A stretch of 64,000 nucleotides of DNA from Paenibacillus xylanexedens (GTDB lineage Bacteria; Bacillota; Bacilli; Paenibacillales; Paenibacillaceae): NCBI RefSeq assembly GCF_001908275.1, contig NZ_CP018620.1, positions 5,456,001 to 5,520,000 on the forward strand, read 5' to 3'. Numbering within the stretch: position 1 is the first letter of the stretch; the number at the start of each line of letters is the position of its first letter. The position numbers and the translations under genes are program-made. Below the pieces are notes generated by a model that was not told where the DNA came from, ran no database searches, and was given only the letters and a program-made list of their open reading frames with translations. Of this stretch, positions 41,274-48,510 are shown one piece after another.

Positions 41274-42302
41274 TTAGTATTCGCCCACTTCAAACGTTAG
41301 GACTCGATCGAATAGGATGTAGTCTTTACGGCTCTTGAACGGTCCTTTGTTATTATCATGTTTGTCAATTGCATAAGATGCTTTCCCGCTTCCAACTTGT
41401 TTTGCTTCATACCAATCGATAAAACTGTTAACTTCTTGCATACTCAGATCAAATTCTTTTTCCAATCCAGTTGTCATTGTAACGACTAGGATCGCACGAT
41501 TACCTGATGGCTCTTCTGGCTCTACAATTGGTCCTTGAGGAGTTGCAGAGGCTTCATTGGAGTATTCGGATTCAACACCTTCGACAACAGCATTTACTAT
41601 AAAATAATATGTAGTCCCGTTTTTCAAACCAGGGATAATAAAATTTCCGTAATCATCTTTTGTAGCCGTTACAGTTTCAGTGTATTCACCAGACTCAATC
41701 CCATATCTTACAATGTAGCCAGTCGCTTCTTGAATTGGGCTCCATGTCAATGATGTTTGGGAATTACCACCTGTAGCCTCTAACTGAATAGATGCTTCGT
41801 TGTAAAAATTCAATTCTGCTACATTATATGTTTTTGTACCCTTCTGAGTAATGGTTATTTGTTTTACATCTTTTAGTGCATTAGAAAGCTCATATATCCC
41901 TCCGTCACCAGGAATTGATTTATTCGGGATGCTCCCTAGAAGACCAGCACCGTTCTTATCCATAAAATAAATAGAAACAGGGCCGCCATCATAATTTAAT
42001 ATATGAAATTTATAGCTATTAATATTTACTGGTGTTTCAAATGTGTAGACAAGTGTATCTGCAACTTTCAAGTCACTTCTTTCGGTAGGTAAAGCAAAAT
42101 AGGTTTCAATATTGTTGTCAGTAATGGCCGTTGTTGAACCAAATAAATTTATATTGCTCGAACCTGTTTTAACAGGCTTACCATCTAACAGCCCTATGGA
42201 ACTAGCATCCTCTGCTGATGCATTTAATTGAAAAACTAATCCGGTTAAAATCAACATTGCACCCAACAAGAAACCTAATTTACTAACAAAAGACTTTATC
42301 AT
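41274..42302 (-). CDS. Secreted modular protein: discoidin-like, FN3 and a novel C-terminal domain
   Basis: A 342-residue exported protein. The signal peptide ends near NASAE. Residues ~35-170 look like a carbohydrate-binding F5/8-type beta-sandwich, ~175-260 is a fibronectin-III module (SIQLEATGGNSQTSLTWSPI), and the last ~75 residues begin RAILVVTMTTGLEKEF. This last domain also ends the protein encoded at 43335-44114, at similar sequence. It likely acts at the cell surface. No catalytic motif. It lies in the accessory island. Confidence 0.75.
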   Translation of the reverse strand: MIKSFVSKLGFLLGAMLILTGLVFQLNASAEDASSIGLLDGKPVKTGSSNINLFGSTTAITDNNIETYFALPTERSDLKVADTLVYTFETPVNINSYKFHILNYDGGPVSIYFMDKNGAGLLGSIPNKSIPGDGGIYELSNALKDVKQITITQKGTKTYNVAELNFYNEASIQLEATGGNSQTSLTWSPIQEATGYIVRYGIESGEYTETVTATKDDYGNFIIPGLKNGTTYYFIVNAVVEGVESEYSNEASATPQGPIVEPEEPSGNRAILVVTMTTGLEKEFDLSMQEVNSFIDWYEAKQVGSGKASYAIDKHDNNKGPFKSRKDYILFDRVLTFEVGEY

Positions 42303-42511: not shown

Positions 42512-43183
42512 ATGTGCGGAAGATTCACAATCACTGATCCCATAGAGGCTATAATGGACAGGTACTATGCATCTATAGCTGATGGCTTTGACTACAAACC
42601 TAATTACAACGCAGCACCCATGCAGTACATTCCTACAATTATAGGAAGCAAGGACGGAAATCGGTTGGGTGCGCTCCGTTGGGGACTCGTTCCTTCATGG
42701 GCCAAGGATGACAAAATCGGTAACAAGATGATTAATGCTCGTGCTGAAACGTTAACCGAGAAGACTTCCTTCAAGAGTCTAATCAGCTCCAAACGCTGTA
42801 TCATCCCCACGAACGGGATTTATGAGTGGCGTAAGGAAGGAACTCAAAAGCAACCAATGCGCATTCTGATGAAGGATGACCGTTTATTCTCGCTTGCTGG
42901 CCTGTACGATACCTGGACAGATCCGGATGGAAACAAATTGAGTACGTGCACCATTATTACAACGGAACCAAATAGTCTTATGGAGGATATCCATAATCGT
43001 ATGCCGGTTATCTTGCGATCTGAGGATGAGACTGAGTGGCTTGGAAGAGATAAGGATGATGTTCAGTCACTACTTGGTCTGCTTAAGCCATATCAAGGTT
43101 CAGAAATGCGAGCGTACGAGGTGCCGAAGGAAGTCGGCAATGTGCGGAATAACAGTGAAGGACTGCTAAAAGAGATAGGATAG
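42512..43183 (+). CDS. SOS response-associated peptidase (SRAP; YedK/HMCES family)
   Basis: A 223-residue protein. The invariant Cys2 (MCGRFT) forms the thiazolidine crosslink with abasic sites in ssDNA; Asn at NAAP, Glu in YEWRKE and His in DIHNRMPVIL complete the SRAP site. Members suppress abasic-site damage and can process the autoprotein link. Such genes are common on prophages (YoqW in SPbeta), matching its place here. AAAGGAGG lies 8 nt upstream of the ATG. A terminator follows. Confidence 0.92.
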   Translation: MCGRFTITDPIEAIMDRYYASIADGFDYKPNYNAAPMQYIPTIIGSKDGNRLGALRWGLVPSWAKDDKIGNKMINARAETLTEKTSFKSLISSKRCIIPTNGIYEWRKEGTQKQPMRILMKDDRLFSLAGLYDTWTDPDGNKLSTCTIITTEPNSLMEDIHNRMPVILRSEDETEWLGRDKDDVQSLLGLLKPYQGSEMRAYEVPKEVGNVRNNSEGLLKEIG

Positions 43184-43334: not shown

Positions 43335-44114
43335 ATGGAGAAAAAAATAGTTTTACCGATCTTATTATCATTCATTTTAGTTTTAAGTTTTGGGACAAGT
43401 GTGTTCGCTGCTAATCTTGGACAGTCTTTAAAGTCTCCAGAAGCTGGATGGAACAGATTCGACGATGACAACACTAAGTTTATTTATACTGGTGAATGGG
43501 AAACTAGCAATAGCGGCAGTGCCGCATGGTATGGTGGCGGAGTAAAATATATTACAAAATCAAGTGACAACGATTCAGTTAGATTTAATTTTCAAGGCAC
43601 AAAGTTAAGAGTCATTGCACAGACTCATATAAGCAGAACAGATAAGGTTCAAGTGAAAATTGATAATGAAATCATCGATACATATAGTATCAATAATTCA
43701 GCTTCTACAGACCAATCTTTAATTTTTGAAAAAGTGGATCTAGCAGACTCAGTGCATAATGTAGAATTAATAAACTTAAATCCACAAGCTGATTTCATTT
43801 TTGATGCCATCGACATTGATGGAGAACTTCTAGATCCCACCATATCTACTCCTAATCCAGAACCTCAACCAGCGGGAGACCGCGCTATCTTAACAGTATC
43901 AATGACAACTGGTTTAGAAAAAGAATACGACCTTCCAATGAGTGATGTAAATACATTTTTGAGTTGGTATGATGTTCGAGATACTGGAACAGGCCCATCT
44001 AAATTTGCAATAAACAAATACAGCAACAACAAAGGGCCATTTAGCAAGCGTACAGATTACGTGATATTCGATAAGATTTTAACGTTTGAAGTAAGTGAAT
44101 ATACGACCAAATAA
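43335..44114 (+). CDS. Secreted protein with beta-sandwich and shared C-terminal domain
   Basis: A 259-residue exported protein (signal ending ~SVFAAN). The middle is a beta-sandwich (WNRFDDDNTKFIYTGEW..VRFNFQGTKLRVI) that recalls tail- or surface-associated carbohydrate-binding modules. The last ~75 residues (RAILTVSMTTGLEKEYDLPM..LTFEVSEY) are clearly homologous to the C-terminus of the protein at 41274-42302. GAAGGAG precedes the ATG. The gene lies between SRAP and the three-gene operon on opposite strand. Confidence 0.75.
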   Translation: MEKKIVLPILLSFILVLSFGTSVFAANLGQSLKSPEAGWNRFDDDNTKFIYTGEWETSNSGSAAWYGGGVKYITKSSDNDSVRFNFQGTKLRVIAQTHISRTDKVQVKIDNEIIDTYSINNSASTDQSLIFEKVDLADSVHNVELINLNPQADFIFDAIDIDGELLDPTISTPNPEPQPAGDRAILTVSMTTGLEKEYDLPMSDVNTFLSWYDVRDTGTGPSKFAINKYSNNKGPFSKRTDYVIFDKILTFEVSEYTTK

Positions 44115-44132: not shown

Positions 44133-44312
44133 TTATCCCTCCTGCTCTATTTTTGTGCTCTGAATTCGTAATGCTGTCGGAAATATCTTCCACCCATAAT
44201 CAATGAGTCGTTCACGATCCTCTTGGAGCTGCCAGACGGAAACACATACTCGGGTTAAAGCTGCTGCGAGGAATTCCATATTTGTAGTTAGTACTTTGTA
44301 TGTGTGATTCAT
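44133..44312 (-). CDS. Small hypothetical protein (59 aa)
   Basis: 59 residues after the ATG at 44312, which has AGGAGAT 4-6 nt upstream. Mixed hydrophobic and charged (VCVSVWQLQEDRERLIDYGW). No family recognised. It lies 60 bp downstream of the three-gene operon on the same strand and may belong to it. Confidence 0.5.
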   Translation of the reverse strand: MNHTYKVLTTNMEFLAAALTRVCVSVWQLQEDRERLIDYGWKIFPTALRIQSTKIEQEG

Positions 44313-44375
44313 ATTATCTCCTAAAAAGGCCGCTAACAATTGAACTCAAGAGTCAGCGGCCCGTTTTAAAGAAAA

Positions 44376-44765
44376 TTATAATTCATTATTATTGCGGTCA
44401 AAGTAGATGAAGTCACAACATTTAAATAATTTTCTTGCTTGACCTCTAGTGAGCTCTACTTTGTCGTGTGAACTGTGTATCTCTGCGTGGTGTTCATTGT
44501 CCTCCACTGGTTTGTGTAATACTACCGTATCATTATCTAGACAATCTTCGACCTTAATTATTGCAATAGCTCTAAGATTCTCTTTTCCCATCCTTGATTC
44601 AAAATTAAGCGTGATATTGCCTGTAGATCTTCCCCCATCTCTATCCACAGAAACGCCGTTCGAATCTTTAAAAATAGCAGATGACGGTAAGTCGTCTTTC
44701 CACCATGCTGGTATAGGCTTTAATGCTCGATATAGTATTTCTTCCCGCTTAATTTCCGGATCCAT
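44376..44765 (-). CDS. Hypothetical protein C of a three-gene overlapping operon
   Basis: 129 residues, cytoplasmic. Conserved-looking segments are LYRALKPIPAWWKDD, SSAIFKDSNGVSVDRDGGR and, late, a HAEIHSSHDKVELTRGQA stretch; these look like a real family domain whose function I do not know. It overlaps gene B by 17 nt with a weak ribosome site, so coupling to B is probable. No transmembrane segment, no catalytic motif assignable. Confidence 0.6.
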   Translation of the reverse strand: MDPEIKREEILYRALKPIPAWWKDDLPSSAIFKDSNGVSVDRDGGRSTGNITLNFESRMGKENLRAIAIIKVEDCLDNDTVVLHKPVEDNEHHAEIHSSHDKVELTRGQARKLFKCCDFIYFDRNNNEL

Positions 44766-45348
44766 TAAATTCAGCTAAAATCTCATTTAATTTCCAGTAC
44801 TTAGTTAGGGGAATTTCTCTGTCAGTTTCATCTCCATTTTCCAGCTCCATATAGATACCGATCTTATCTTTGTAAATTTCCATCTCAAGATAATCTCCAT
44901 TAGATTTTTCATATTCGAGTTGAATACTCTTTCTTGCTGTAGGAAAAATATATGGCTGGAAATCCAAAAATGTAACAATTGAAATAACAGTACTAATTAG
45001 CTCTTCCTCAAATTTTTCAGCGCCATTATCATTCCAATTATCATCTAATTTCTTTATTTCTTGAATAGTCACAAGGTTTCTAGTTCTTTGCTTCTCCTCT
45101 TTAAGGTGAAAAGCATCTTTCTCAGTAGTTGTGCTGGAACTTTCAACTACTTTTTCTCGCTTTTCAAAATATGAAAGTAAGTGACTATAAGTTGCCTTGT
45201 TTCTATTATACATAATAATTTTTTCTGAATAACTTCTTGATGCAGACTGAACTATTTCCTTGTACTGCGTCATCTTTTGGAAAGCACTGACGTTTTCCAA
45301 GTTCCTGAAAGTAATCATTTTTTGAGGAATAGTGGAAGTGGAAGTCAT
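44749..45348 (-). CDS. Hypothetical protein B of a three-gene overlapping operon
   Basis: 199 residues. The first half is helical and Lys/Glu-rich. The second half is centred on KKLDDNWNDNGAEKF, then TFLDFQPYIFPTARKSIQLEYEKSNGDYLEMEIYKD, a recurring alpha/beta fold in small island-borne proteins. Start 45348 has GAGAGGG and begins one base after the stop of gene A; the ORF start at 45378 lacks support. Function unknown. The tight coupling suggests the three proteins act together. Confidence 0.6.
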   Translation of the reverse strand: MTSTSTIPQKMITFRNLENVSAFQKMTQYKEIVQSASRSYSEKIIMYNRNKATYSHLLSYFEKREKVVESSSTTTEKDAFHLKEEKQRTRNLVTIQEIKKLDDNWNDNGAEKFEEELISTVISIVTFLDFQPYIFPTARKSIQLEYEKSNGDYLEMEIYKDKIGIYMELENGDETDREIPLTKYWKLNEILAEFNGSGN

Positions 45349-45349
45349 T

Positions 45350-45685
45350 TTAACCACCCTCTCTATTTGATTGTTCAAGCGACTCCAGCATATTACCCAA
45401 CCAAGAGTGTATGGAAGCAGCAGTCTCCTTATTCATTACAATTCCAGTTTGTATAAACCTCATAATATTCAGGTTATGTTCCTCTGGTTCGAATCTAACA
45501 TTAGCGCTTAATGTCCCATCATCATTCAGATCCCTTGTTTCGGAATAGGGAAGCGGATGCCGTTCCATGTAAAAGTTAATAACAAACTCTCCGTTTGGAG
45601 AAAGTCCACCTTGCGCTCCGTTAATGTAAACAGGATTATAATCTTCGGTGAACTTATACTTGAAGTTGAGCGAAAATTCAGTCAT
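45350..45685 (-). CDS. Hypothetical protein A of a three-gene overlapping operon
   Basis: 111 residues. The stretch NPVYINGAQGGLSPNGEFVINFYMERHPLP followed by VMNKETAASIHSWLGNM resembles the DUF3467-like beta-sandwich seen in phage- and island-associated proteins, but I can only suggest this. It is the first gene of the operon and lies next to a 16-bp palindrome that could be its operator. Function unknown. Confidence 0.6.
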   Translation of the reverse strand: MTEFSLNFKYKFTEDYNPVYINGAQGGLSPNGEFVINFYMERHPLPYSETRDLNDDGTLSANVRFEPEEHNLNIMRFIQTGIVMNKETAASIHSWLGNMLESLEQSNREGG

Positions 45686-45749: not shown

Positions 45750-45765
45750 TAAGACATACGTCTTA
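45750..45765. promoter_or_regulatory. 16-bp palindrome upstream of the three-gene operon
   Basis: TAAGAC-ATAC-GTCTTA has perfect 6-bp arms, ~65 bp before gene A. A TATAAT box on the minus strand lies between it and gene A, so it is a candidate operator. Confidence 0.45.
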
Positions 45766-45824
45766 GTACCTAAGAATTCTATCTTTTATATCATATCATA
45801 AACGCCAAAATAAGTAAATTATGT

Positions 45825-45854: not shown

Positions 45855-46006
45855 ATCTTTGTACTACCTTATCAAACAAACTCCGCTTTAACCATTTCAT
45901 TAACTACCTCTTTCATTACAACTGACTTAGCTTGTTGCTTCGGTATCTTGTCCAACTTCACCCGCGCTTTGTGCATCTTCGCACAGCAAATTACATCTCA
46001 CTTTTA

Positions 46007-46241
46007 TTATTGTGATTGTACTTTAATTCCAACTTCTTTGCGGTAGTTGAAAAGCAATTGCCGCCAGAAGTCGTAACTGCCATTGCTGTCAGCGATGTAA
46101 AGGCTTGTAAAACTCATAAGCTGATTCTGCCCATTTAGGACATTCCATGTTCTCCTTAACCTTCTGAGCCGCGATCCACTTGGCCTGAGATTCAACAGTT
46201 GCCTTCAGTTCATCCATTTGTTTCTTTTCTTCTGATGTCAT
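46007..46241 (-). pseudogene. Phage small protein with one frameshift
   Basis: Starts at 46241 (ATG overlapping the end of the endolysin pseudogene). It reads ~50 residues (MTSEEKKQMDELKATVE...) and then meets a TGA at an out-of-frame position; shifting one base restores YIADSNGSYDFWRQLLFNYRKEVG to the stop at 46007. Such ~80-residue proteins sit behind phage endolysins. A one-base gain or loss near 46100 explains the break. Confidence 0.6.
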
Positions 46242-46762
46242 TGGTTGTCCTCCTTGTTTTGTAATTTTGCCATAACAGCATTAATTTCCGCCTGTGTTGG
46301 ATGCTGCCCAGAACGGTATTGCGCTGTTGATAAACCAAAGTCCATTTGCAAATGAGGATAGTCAGGGAAGCTCGCCCAATCTCCACCCCATGTGAAGCCC
46401 ACCCCTTGCCGATCTCAGCGACCTGGAGCCAATCAGACCGTTTGTCTCCGTTGCCGTCCCGCACTGTGTCCCAGCTTACTGATTTACCGTCAGGCATGAG
46501 CAACACATAATCCACGGCCACACCAAAATTGTGATAACTGTATCCACCGCGTGCGTTAGTTACAACCTTCCCTGGCTTGCTACGACCCTGTGCATACAAA
46601 GCGTCTTGCTACGCTATGGTCCGCAAACCCTGCGTGATGAATTGGGATGCCAATAGCAAAAGAGCGCTGTATAAGCCGCTCCGCAGCTGTACGCACGATA
46701 GGCAATAAACCTGTCAGTCTGGAAGCAGATTTACTCACTACATAATCCAATGTGAGCGTCAT
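46238..46762 (-). pseudogene. Phage M15 peptidase endolysin, broken by frameshifts and a stop
   Basis: Reading frame by frame recovers the start (MTLTLDYVVSKSASRLTGLL), then a shift near 46640 plus an in-frame TAG, then the core RSKPGKVVTNARGGYSYHNFGVAVDYV and DSDWLQVAEIG, and after a second shift near 46398 FTWGGDWASFPDYPHLQMDF..QHPTQAEI. The zinc ligands His and Asp of the M15 fold (SYHNFGVAVD, PHLQMD) are seen but on different frames. It would have cleaved peptidoglycan peptides. Decayed. Confidence 0.8.
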
Positions 46763-47027
46763 TGCTGATCAGCTCCCTTTTTAGCTTGTTTGATGATTGA
46801 TTACCATAGACCGCCACAGCACCAACTAAGATGCCTTGAACCACGCTTTCCACCGAAAGGCCCAACATCAACAGCACAAACACGATGGCTACCGCAGTAA
46901 CTATAAAAATAATCGTCCAGTCCGGTACCCGCGGCGTCTGCTTCAGCACGATACCGATAATCCAGCAGGCAGCCAGCACAATAACCAACCTTGCATCAAT
47001 CAAGCCATTAATAATTTCCCATTCCAC
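46731..47027 (-). CDS. Phage holin
   Basis: 98 residues with two to three transmembrane helices (LVIVLAACWIIGIVL, DWTIIFIVTAVAIVFVLLML, GILVGAVAVYG) and a charged C-terminus, typical of small class II holins that breach the membrane for the endolysin. Start GTG 47027 with AGGGGG 8 nt upstream. It overlaps the endolysin pseudogene by 32 bp and seems itself intact. Confidence 0.8.
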   Translation of the reverse strand: MEWEIINGLIDARLVIVLAACWIIGIVLKQTPRVPDWTIIFIVTAVAIVFVLLMLGLSVESVVQGILVGAVAVYGNQSSNKLKRELISNDAHIGLCSE

Positions 47028-47028
47028 A

Positions 47029-47379
47029 CTACATTCCCCCTAACTTAATTCCGGCCCATACAGCCGCTACAATGAGTCCTGTCATGCCAGTTAATGCCGC
47101 TCCGTACACGGTACGTTTCAGCCATTTTTGATCTTCGTCATGCTTATCCAATCTCGACAATGCATCTGCTGCATTGCGTCTGGCATCATAAGCAACATCG
47201 GTTGTCTTCTTAAGATCAGATTCAATCTCAACAATACGAAGGGCCATCTGCTGCGCTGTCTGTAGTGCTTCTTTGGAAATCTCTTTGACCTCAGCTACTC
47301 CCGGAGCCAGAGCAGCCAAAGGTTTCAACGCTTCCTCAATCCGAGCTAATTGGACCTTTAAATCAACAATCGTGTTCAC
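47029..47379 (-). CDS. XhlA-like phage lysis protein
   Basis: 116 residues: a long coiled-coil (VDLKVQLARIEEALKPL..ESDLKKTTDVAYDARRNAADALSRLDKHDEDQKW) then one transmembrane helix (~95-112), as in haemolysin XhlA/BhlA that precedes holin in Gram-positive phages. The start is unclear: a GTG at 47379 directly abuts GGAGG, and ATT 8 nt after it could be used. Runs in series with the holin. Confidence 0.7.
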   Translation of the reverse strand: MNTIVDLKVQLARIEEALKPLAALAPGVAEVKEISKEALQTAQQMALRIVEIESDLKKTTDVAYDARRNAADALSRLDKHDEDQKWLKRTVYGAALTGMTGLIVAAVWAGIKLGGM

Positions 47380-47739: not shown

Positions 47740-48450
47740 GATTTACAAGTTCAAAATCAGGACCACCCGTCCAACGGGTGGTTTCCTCTTGGGGTATAAC
47801 CCCCTGTTGCCAAACTGCGCCTAAAGACGCTACCCTGACAGCAGGGCTGTTAAAATGGTTTTACTTCTTTTTGCTTCGATTACTGCTGAATGGATCTTCG
47901 TATTCTTTTACACTCAGCTTATCTACCGCCTGATCATGTGCTTCTTGCTCACGAATATACTTTCTTACTGTTGCTTCATTTAGACCCACTGTACTCACAT
48001 AGTACCCTTCTGCCCAAAACTTTCGATTGCCGTATTTATACTTGAGCTGGGCATGCTTCTCGAATATCATTAGTGAACTTTTTCCCTTTAGATATCCCAT
48101 GGACGTGGAGACTGCCATTTTCGGTGGAATCGCTACCAACATGTGAACATGATCGGGCATCATGTGACCTTCTATAATTTCTACTCCCTTGTACTTACAT
48201 AGACGTTTGAAAATTTCGATCGATTAAATCTTTTCTCACTTGATTATAGATTTCTTTCCGTCTATACTTCGGGGTAAATACAATGTGGTATTTGCACATC
48301 CACTTTGTGTGAGCTAGACTGTAGCTCTTGTTTGCCATCCTAAACCATTCTTTTCTTTTGAGCCTGAACATCTCAATTTTATCGGAATGGTCTTGGTGGT
48401 CAAACCCTCGATCCCTCCACCCGCATAGCGGGTGGTTTTTTGTTTCGCGC
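47740..48450 (-). mobile_element. IS200-type insertion sequence (defective)
   Basis: The single Y1 transposase lies between two hairpins typical of IS200/IS605 ends: ACCACCCGT / ACGGGTGGT (47762-47782), followed by GGGGTATAACCCC, on one side and CCACCCGC / GCGGGTGG (48417-48435) on the other. No tnpB. The ends have no inverted repeats, as usual for this group. It lies next to the tRNA-Val gene. Exact borders are approximate. Confidence 0.75.
47861..48338 (-). pseudogene. tnpA: IS200 transposase TnpA with frameshift
   Basis: The N-terminal half (MANKSYSLAHTKWMCKYHIVF) and the C-terminal half (HMMPDHVHMLVAIPP with the HUH motif; VRKYIREQE with the catalytic Tyr) are in different frames. The break is a tandem duplication of four bases (CGATCGAT, 48217-48224); removing four bases restores ATC GAA ATT TTC. 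All catalytic residues are otherwise present, so the lesion is recent. Confidence 0.85.
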
Positions 48451-48482
48451 GTTTCACGCACTCAACTGGCTAAAGCCATAAT

Positions 48483-48510
48483 AAAAAAAGCCCTTGATAT
48501 ACAAGGACTT
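48483..48510 (-). terminator. Terminator of tRNA-Val
   Basis: The minus strand forms AAGTCCTTG / CAAGGGCTT with a TATAT loop and seven T, directly 3' of the tRNA. Confidence 0.75.

Follow-up and report, generated by a model that had tools for sequence, protein, structure and literature searches.

A putative phage-carried, three-component toxin-antitoxin cassette in a prophage remnant of Paenibacillus xylanexedens

Results

A tightly coupled operon in an AT-rich part of a prophage remnant

We analysed a 64,000-nucleotide stretch of Paenibacillus xylanexedens DNA (contig NZ_CP018620.1, positions 5,456,001 to 5,520,000, hereafter the window; host genome G000, 7.1 Mb in two contigs), in which three small genes, A, B and C, form an operon that we read as a putative mobile toxin-antitoxin-type cassette with a third component. 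An earlier annotation made from the letters alone (the original prediction) had described a tightly coupled three-gene operon, and its coordinates and spacings are exact: one base separates the stop of A from the start of B, and the overlap of B with C is 17 nt (Table 1). The extent of B is counted from an ATG; if it began at a TTG 30 nt upstream, it would have 209 aa. Overlapping B and C have the layout of two small coupled genes that is looked for in type II toxin-antitoxin systems. The operon is AT-rich: its GC content is 35.9%, that of the window 44.8%, and it ranks 7 among 627 stretches of equal length. It sits within a short prophage remnant, with endolysin scraps, a holin gene, an XhlA-like gene, a split IS200 transposase and a tRNA-Val to one side and a 68-aa phage-type open reading frame (ORF) to the other.

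Table 1. Coordinates of the operon and of neighbouring features in the window
Feature	Position	Strand	Remarks
Gene A	45350-45685	-	111 aa, DUF3467-like; putative third component
Gene B	44749-45348	-	199 aa; putative antitoxin; C-terminal domain conserved, N-terminal half variable
Gene C	44376-44765	-	129 aa; putative toxin with predicted ADP-ribosyltransferase fold
Palindrome TAAGAC-N4-GTCTTA	45750-45765		65 nt before the A start codon
Promoter-like site TTTACT-17-TATGAT	45790-45818	-	TG before the second hexamer
68-aa phage-type ORF	44133-44339	-	one border of the cargo slot; matching stretch retained in L050-L053 and L055
Amidase endolysin, C-terminal scrap	45990-46250	-	opposite border of the cargo slot
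M15-peptidase-like ORF, endolysin remnant	46210-46599	-	Peptidase_M15_4, E 0.00048, below Pfam cutoff
Phage holin	46731-47027	-	frame open; Phage_holin_5_2, E 2e-13, above Pfam cutoff
XhlA-like gene	47029-47379	-	frame open; XhlA, E 6e-9, above Pfam cutoff

The operon recurs in distant genomes and on viral contigs

The original prediction had made conserved co-occurrence of the three genes elsewhere a test of its proposal, and such co-occurrence exists: the full ordered trio is found at seven loci including the window (the others being L015, L023, L030, L032, L060 and L061), and since the order is repeated at six further loci, the arrangement is beyond chance. Scanning the GTDB genome collection with an alignment of four A proteins returned eight loci, among them L015 from the Flavobacteriaceae, whose three genes stand in the same order as in the window (E 9.3e-35 for A, 4.4e-18 for B and 5.7e-14 for C). 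An A profile then matched 9 of 218 genomes of the L015 phylum, where it uncovered the two trios L060 and L061 (examined with at most 1.5 kb per flank); in the phylum of the window, its 3 matches among 219 genomes added no trio. The remaining three loci (L023, L030 and L032) are virus-classed contigs and were found by scanning virus contigs with A. This recurrence, with three virus-classed loci among the six beyond the window, marks A-B-C as a mobile cassette. The survival of the trio among broken genes had been taken as a sign of benefit to the host, an argument that is not supported in this form; phages carry the trio as cargo.

Among genomes related to the host, the cassette is rare. C was present in its own genome alone among 149 relatives, and its sole further match in 398 genomes of the class was a fragment containing stops (E 0.021); an alignment of the window and L015 C proteins, run over 295 genomes of the L015 class, matched only L015's own genome. 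When A, B and C were compared by tblastn (with the A relatives of L029 and L024 as additional queries) to 50,697 phage records and 72,556 plasmids, A, B and C gave two matches only, a 29% A relative in Methylorubrum (L004) and a weak B match in an uncultured phage, while megablast of the operon against plasmids, and scans of virus contigs with the single A, B and C proteins or with the C alignment, gave nothing useful. Several candidate loci were dropped: L021 (Pedobacter), as profile comparison gave its second and third genes no support; L034, whose match to the C pattern is located in a terminase-like frame; and L005 (genome G356) and L011 (genome G497), whose weak matches are interrupted by stops.

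Relatives of A adjoin several toxin-antitoxin families

A scores 17.9 bits against DUF3467 (PF11950), under the Pfam cutoff of 25, and two of its relatives exceed that cutoff (31.1 bits for L010, 25.1 bits for L023). DUF3467 was the only Pfam family reached by A at E values up to 10, with no match to a SecB model. The predicted-fold search of A likewise contained no SecB row, which excludes nothing, and returned weak rows; in a viral library the predicted fold found one uncharacterised relative (E 1.2e-4). While A precedes B-C at the seven trio loci, A-like genes elsewhere adjoin genes for a PemK/MazF toxin, a YafQ toxin, a Panacea antitoxin, a HicB antitoxin and a HicA toxin (the last below cutoff). 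Because relatives of A keep the company of known toxin-antitoxin genes, the most likely assignment, as far as gene neighbourhood can tell, is that of antitoxin and toxin for B-C and of a third component for A.

Other A-like genes have neighbours of less clear kind. At L009 (560-1842) and L010 (456-1836), from two genomes of the same genus and family, the gene after the A-like one is unnamed and encodes about 190 aa, and the third gene looks HEPN-like by eye, without a matching model. At L063 (740-1523) and L064 (1802-2532), A-like genes are followed by two small overlapping genes without Pfam or NCBIfam match, the last of which looks HicA-like by eye, again without a matching model.

Upstream of A, the 16-bp palindrome in the original prediction is present, but its arms measure just 6 bp, and 37 of 500 composition shuffles of the stretch contained repeats of this kind in equal number, so that it is not clearly above chance. 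Promoter-like sites in the region are likewise at chance level (7 against a shuffle mean of 6.5). At L032, a perfect 32-bp palindrome (16-bp arms, within 1887-2010) ends 38 nt before the start of A and may be an operator, the longest arm in 200 shuffles being 9. This palindrome, together with the nucleic-acid-binding proteins among the weak fold rows of A, keeps alive a reading in which B-C would be a plain two-part toxin-antitoxin system and A a nucleic-acid-binding repressor of the operon instead of a stabiliser of the antitoxin. We regard this as unlikely, though deserving of attention, and favour A as a third component that protects the B-C pair.

B and C resemble PDC-M32, and C is predicted to adopt an ADP-ribosyltransferase fold

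Neither B nor C matched a model in Pfam or NCBIfam, and a sequence search of the PDB gave no useful match. The PADLOC models were more informative: residues 95-183 of B match positions 265-358 of the 375 of PDC-M32A (E 1.2e-7), and C matches PDC-M32B weakly (E 0.0073). Profile comparison extended both relationships, aligning the B family with the PDC-M32A C-terminus over 89 columns (probability 80%, E 1.3e-5) and the C family with PDC-M32B over 103 columns (probability 84%, E 7.1e-6). The claim that A, B and C have no known function holds in the strict sense, yet the models that B and C match belong to a candidate phage-defence system in the PADLOC set, and PDC-M32 is reported among the PADLOC hits in Sinorhizobium prophages in PMC12429752.

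True PDC-M32 pairs were recovered at two loci (L002 and L003) from 250 genomes of the class, and comparison with them reveals both likeness and difference. In both pairs, as in the trio, the gene for the B-like domain directly precedes and overlaps that for the C-like protein, and the order of B and C is that of PDC-M32A and PDC-M32B. However, PDC-M32A carries a long extra front, B having no counterpart of its first ~260 positions and thus giving no full-length match (375-384 positions); no A-like ORF is listed in the 3.4-kb loci of the two pairs; and the identity between PDC-M32B and C is just 18-23%. Because B does not have the long front part, A-B-C is, by sequence comparison, a relative of PDC-M32 and not a member.

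The structure model of C has a predicted local distance difference test (pLDDT) score of 92.2, and its structure-search rows are of the ADP-ribosyltransferase (ART) type, which points to an ART-fold protein. Two residues, R13 (in the strand 10-15) and E95 (in the strand 93-97), are kept in all seven C proteins, and going by strand order we take them as the probable counterparts of the arginine in the first strand and the glutamate in a later strand that are conserved in ART proteins.

The relationship to PDC-M32 also admits a reading of A-B-C as an infection-sensing effector system, in which C would be an effector that stays inactive until activated and B a direct sensor of phage instead of an antitoxin. 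The long N-terminal extra ahead of the shared domain in PDC-M32A could be such a sensor, and PDC-M32 figures among defence candidates rather than toxin-antitoxin systems; however, the relatives of A adjoin toxin-antitoxin genes, and two small coupled genes with a variable front on the partner are the usual toxin-antitoxin build. We hold this reading to be unlikely and prefer the antitoxin-toxin assignment.

The operon occupies a cargo slot that houses defence genes in sister prophages

The original prediction had placed the operon beside broken lysis genes and a broken transposase. The IS200 transposase is indeed in two pieces, and the endolysin is reduced to scraps, the amidase part to residues 214-262 and 265-285 of a 289-residue frame; the holin and XhlA frames, in contrast, are open and pass the Pfam cutoffs. 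The IS200-type element spans window positions 47753-48490 and has copies at 86-93% in several genomes of the genus.

DNA flanking the trio on both sides matches the prophages of five same-genus genomes (L050-L054; L055, from genome G034, was left out as its stretch has no endolysin match), and in these five other cargo fills the space behind the endolysin end (window ~45990-46250). The far limit of this slot is the small ORF in L050-L053 and an SRAP gene in L054. In the window, an SRAP gene (42512-43183) lies beside two genes for secreted-type proteins (41274-42302 and 43335-44114) on opposite strands, which by eye have a common C-terminal part.

A PADLOC scan of ten cargo proteins from the five slots identified Septu in L051 (4653-6580; PtuA E 1.2e-149, PtuB E 9.5e-99) and RmrA in L054 (4358-6247; E 1.7e-58), there with an unnamed 266-aa partner; the scanned proteins of L050, L052 and L053 gave no PADLOC match. 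The trio thus shares its location with the known defence genes of at least two sister prophages. The uncharacterised cargo of the other slots, a 457-aa protein or pairs of small proteins (L050 2548-3918, L052 3168-4303, L053 3948-5058), provides candidates for new defence genes. According to the sections of PMC9122126 that treat them, P2, P4, Vibrio and Bacillus prophages have known defence hotspots, and these likewise hold varying defence cargo, Septu included, in a short interval flanked by conserved phage genes. The Bacillus hotspot, as given in that source, lies between a regulator and a peptidase adjacent to the integrase, whereas the slot here lies behind the endolysin. The slot of L051 and L054 is a defence hotspot that differs from the places given in section 12 of that paper.

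That A, B and C are ordinary leftover phage genes, such as lysis or tail helpers, is very improbable: the trio does follow lysis genes both in the window and (holin- and amidase-like) in L032, and shortly ahead of tape-measure-like genes in L023 and L030 (phage gene names by eye), but it is absent from the five sister prophages, where other cargo replaces it, it adjoins an ABC-transporter-like gene (by eye) at L015, and the PHROGs matches are weak, the sole one to a phage structural protein, which the original prediction would have counted against itself if clear, being to a tail fiber (E 0.011, B residues 33-145).

Discussion

The suggestion that the operon is a defence or toxin-antitoxin module is favoured by the likeness of B and C to PDC-M32, the ART-type fold, the neighbours of A relatives and the presence of Septu or RmrA in two of five sister slots; the evidence points in that direction, while the function itself is our inference. 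Gene order, recurrence, homology, the predicted fold of C, the exchange of partners by A and the cargo slot have direct support from sequence and prediction, and an ART-fold C, a B with a changing front and a shared A, carried by phages and found in a defence slot, together give the anatomy of a toxin-antitoxin system with a third component. On balance, and with some confidence, we read A-B-C as a tripartite defence cassette of the toxin-antitoxin type that is mobile and carried by phages, is probably directed against rival phages and would work like CmdTAC with a different third protein.

In CmdTAC, as given in part of PMC11618068, a chaperone stabilises the antitoxin until newly made phage capsid protein displaces the chaperone, whereupon the antitoxin undergoes degradation and the ART toxin modifies mRNA, which protects against phage. 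By the same source, CmdTAC, like the trio, consists of three small genes for an ART-type toxin, an antitoxin and a third protein. The two differ in the third protein, CmdC being SecB-like and A DUF3467-like, and, compared by description, in their characteristic residues, CmdT having an HY-[E,D,Q] triad and C retaining R13, H93 and E95. By analogy, C would be a small toxin with an ART fold and B an antitoxin that holds it through its conserved C-terminal domain, neutralising it; A would keep the pair safe, most likely through stabilising B, and upon infection by a rival phage A would let go, so that C could halt growth or phage production through whatever it modifies. The role of A is the least secured step of this scheme.

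One family of third proteins serving several unrelated toxin-antitoxin families has a precedent in the toxin-antitoxin-chaperone (TAC) systems, in which, according to part of PMC5105189, a SecB-like chaperone is paired with HigBA, HicAB or MqsRA. The TAC chaperones are SecB-like, whereas A has no match to a SecB model in Pfam and its family is partnered with B-C, PemK, YafQ, Panacea and HicA/HicB. Tripartite toxin-antitoxin systems and ART toxins are thus already known kinds. As far as the open-licence PubMed Central literature shows, a DUF3467-like third component common to several toxin-antitoxin families and the ART reading of a PDC-M32B-like protein are new; DUF3467 itself is mentioned there in a single paper, on chlorhexidine and Porphyromonas, and PDC-M32 likewise in one.

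More tentatively, A may be the type member for a second class of third components, distinct from SecB, which would be paired with unrelated modules (B with an ART-fold C, PemK/MazF, YafQ, HicAB and Panacea, carried by phages and bacteria) and couple each to an infection or stress signal, and B-C may be a new ART toxin-antitoxin family with PDC-M32 as its A-less branch. If this is true, the mechanism by which a shared third protein gates toxin-antitoxin systems would not be bound to SecB, as another family would serve several toxin types, and searching for A would be an easy handle on new anti-phage modules. For the uncharacterised PDC-M32, NAD+-dependent ADP-ribosylation would become a chemistry open to testing, and in this genus the slot behind the endolysin would be a place to seek defence genes.
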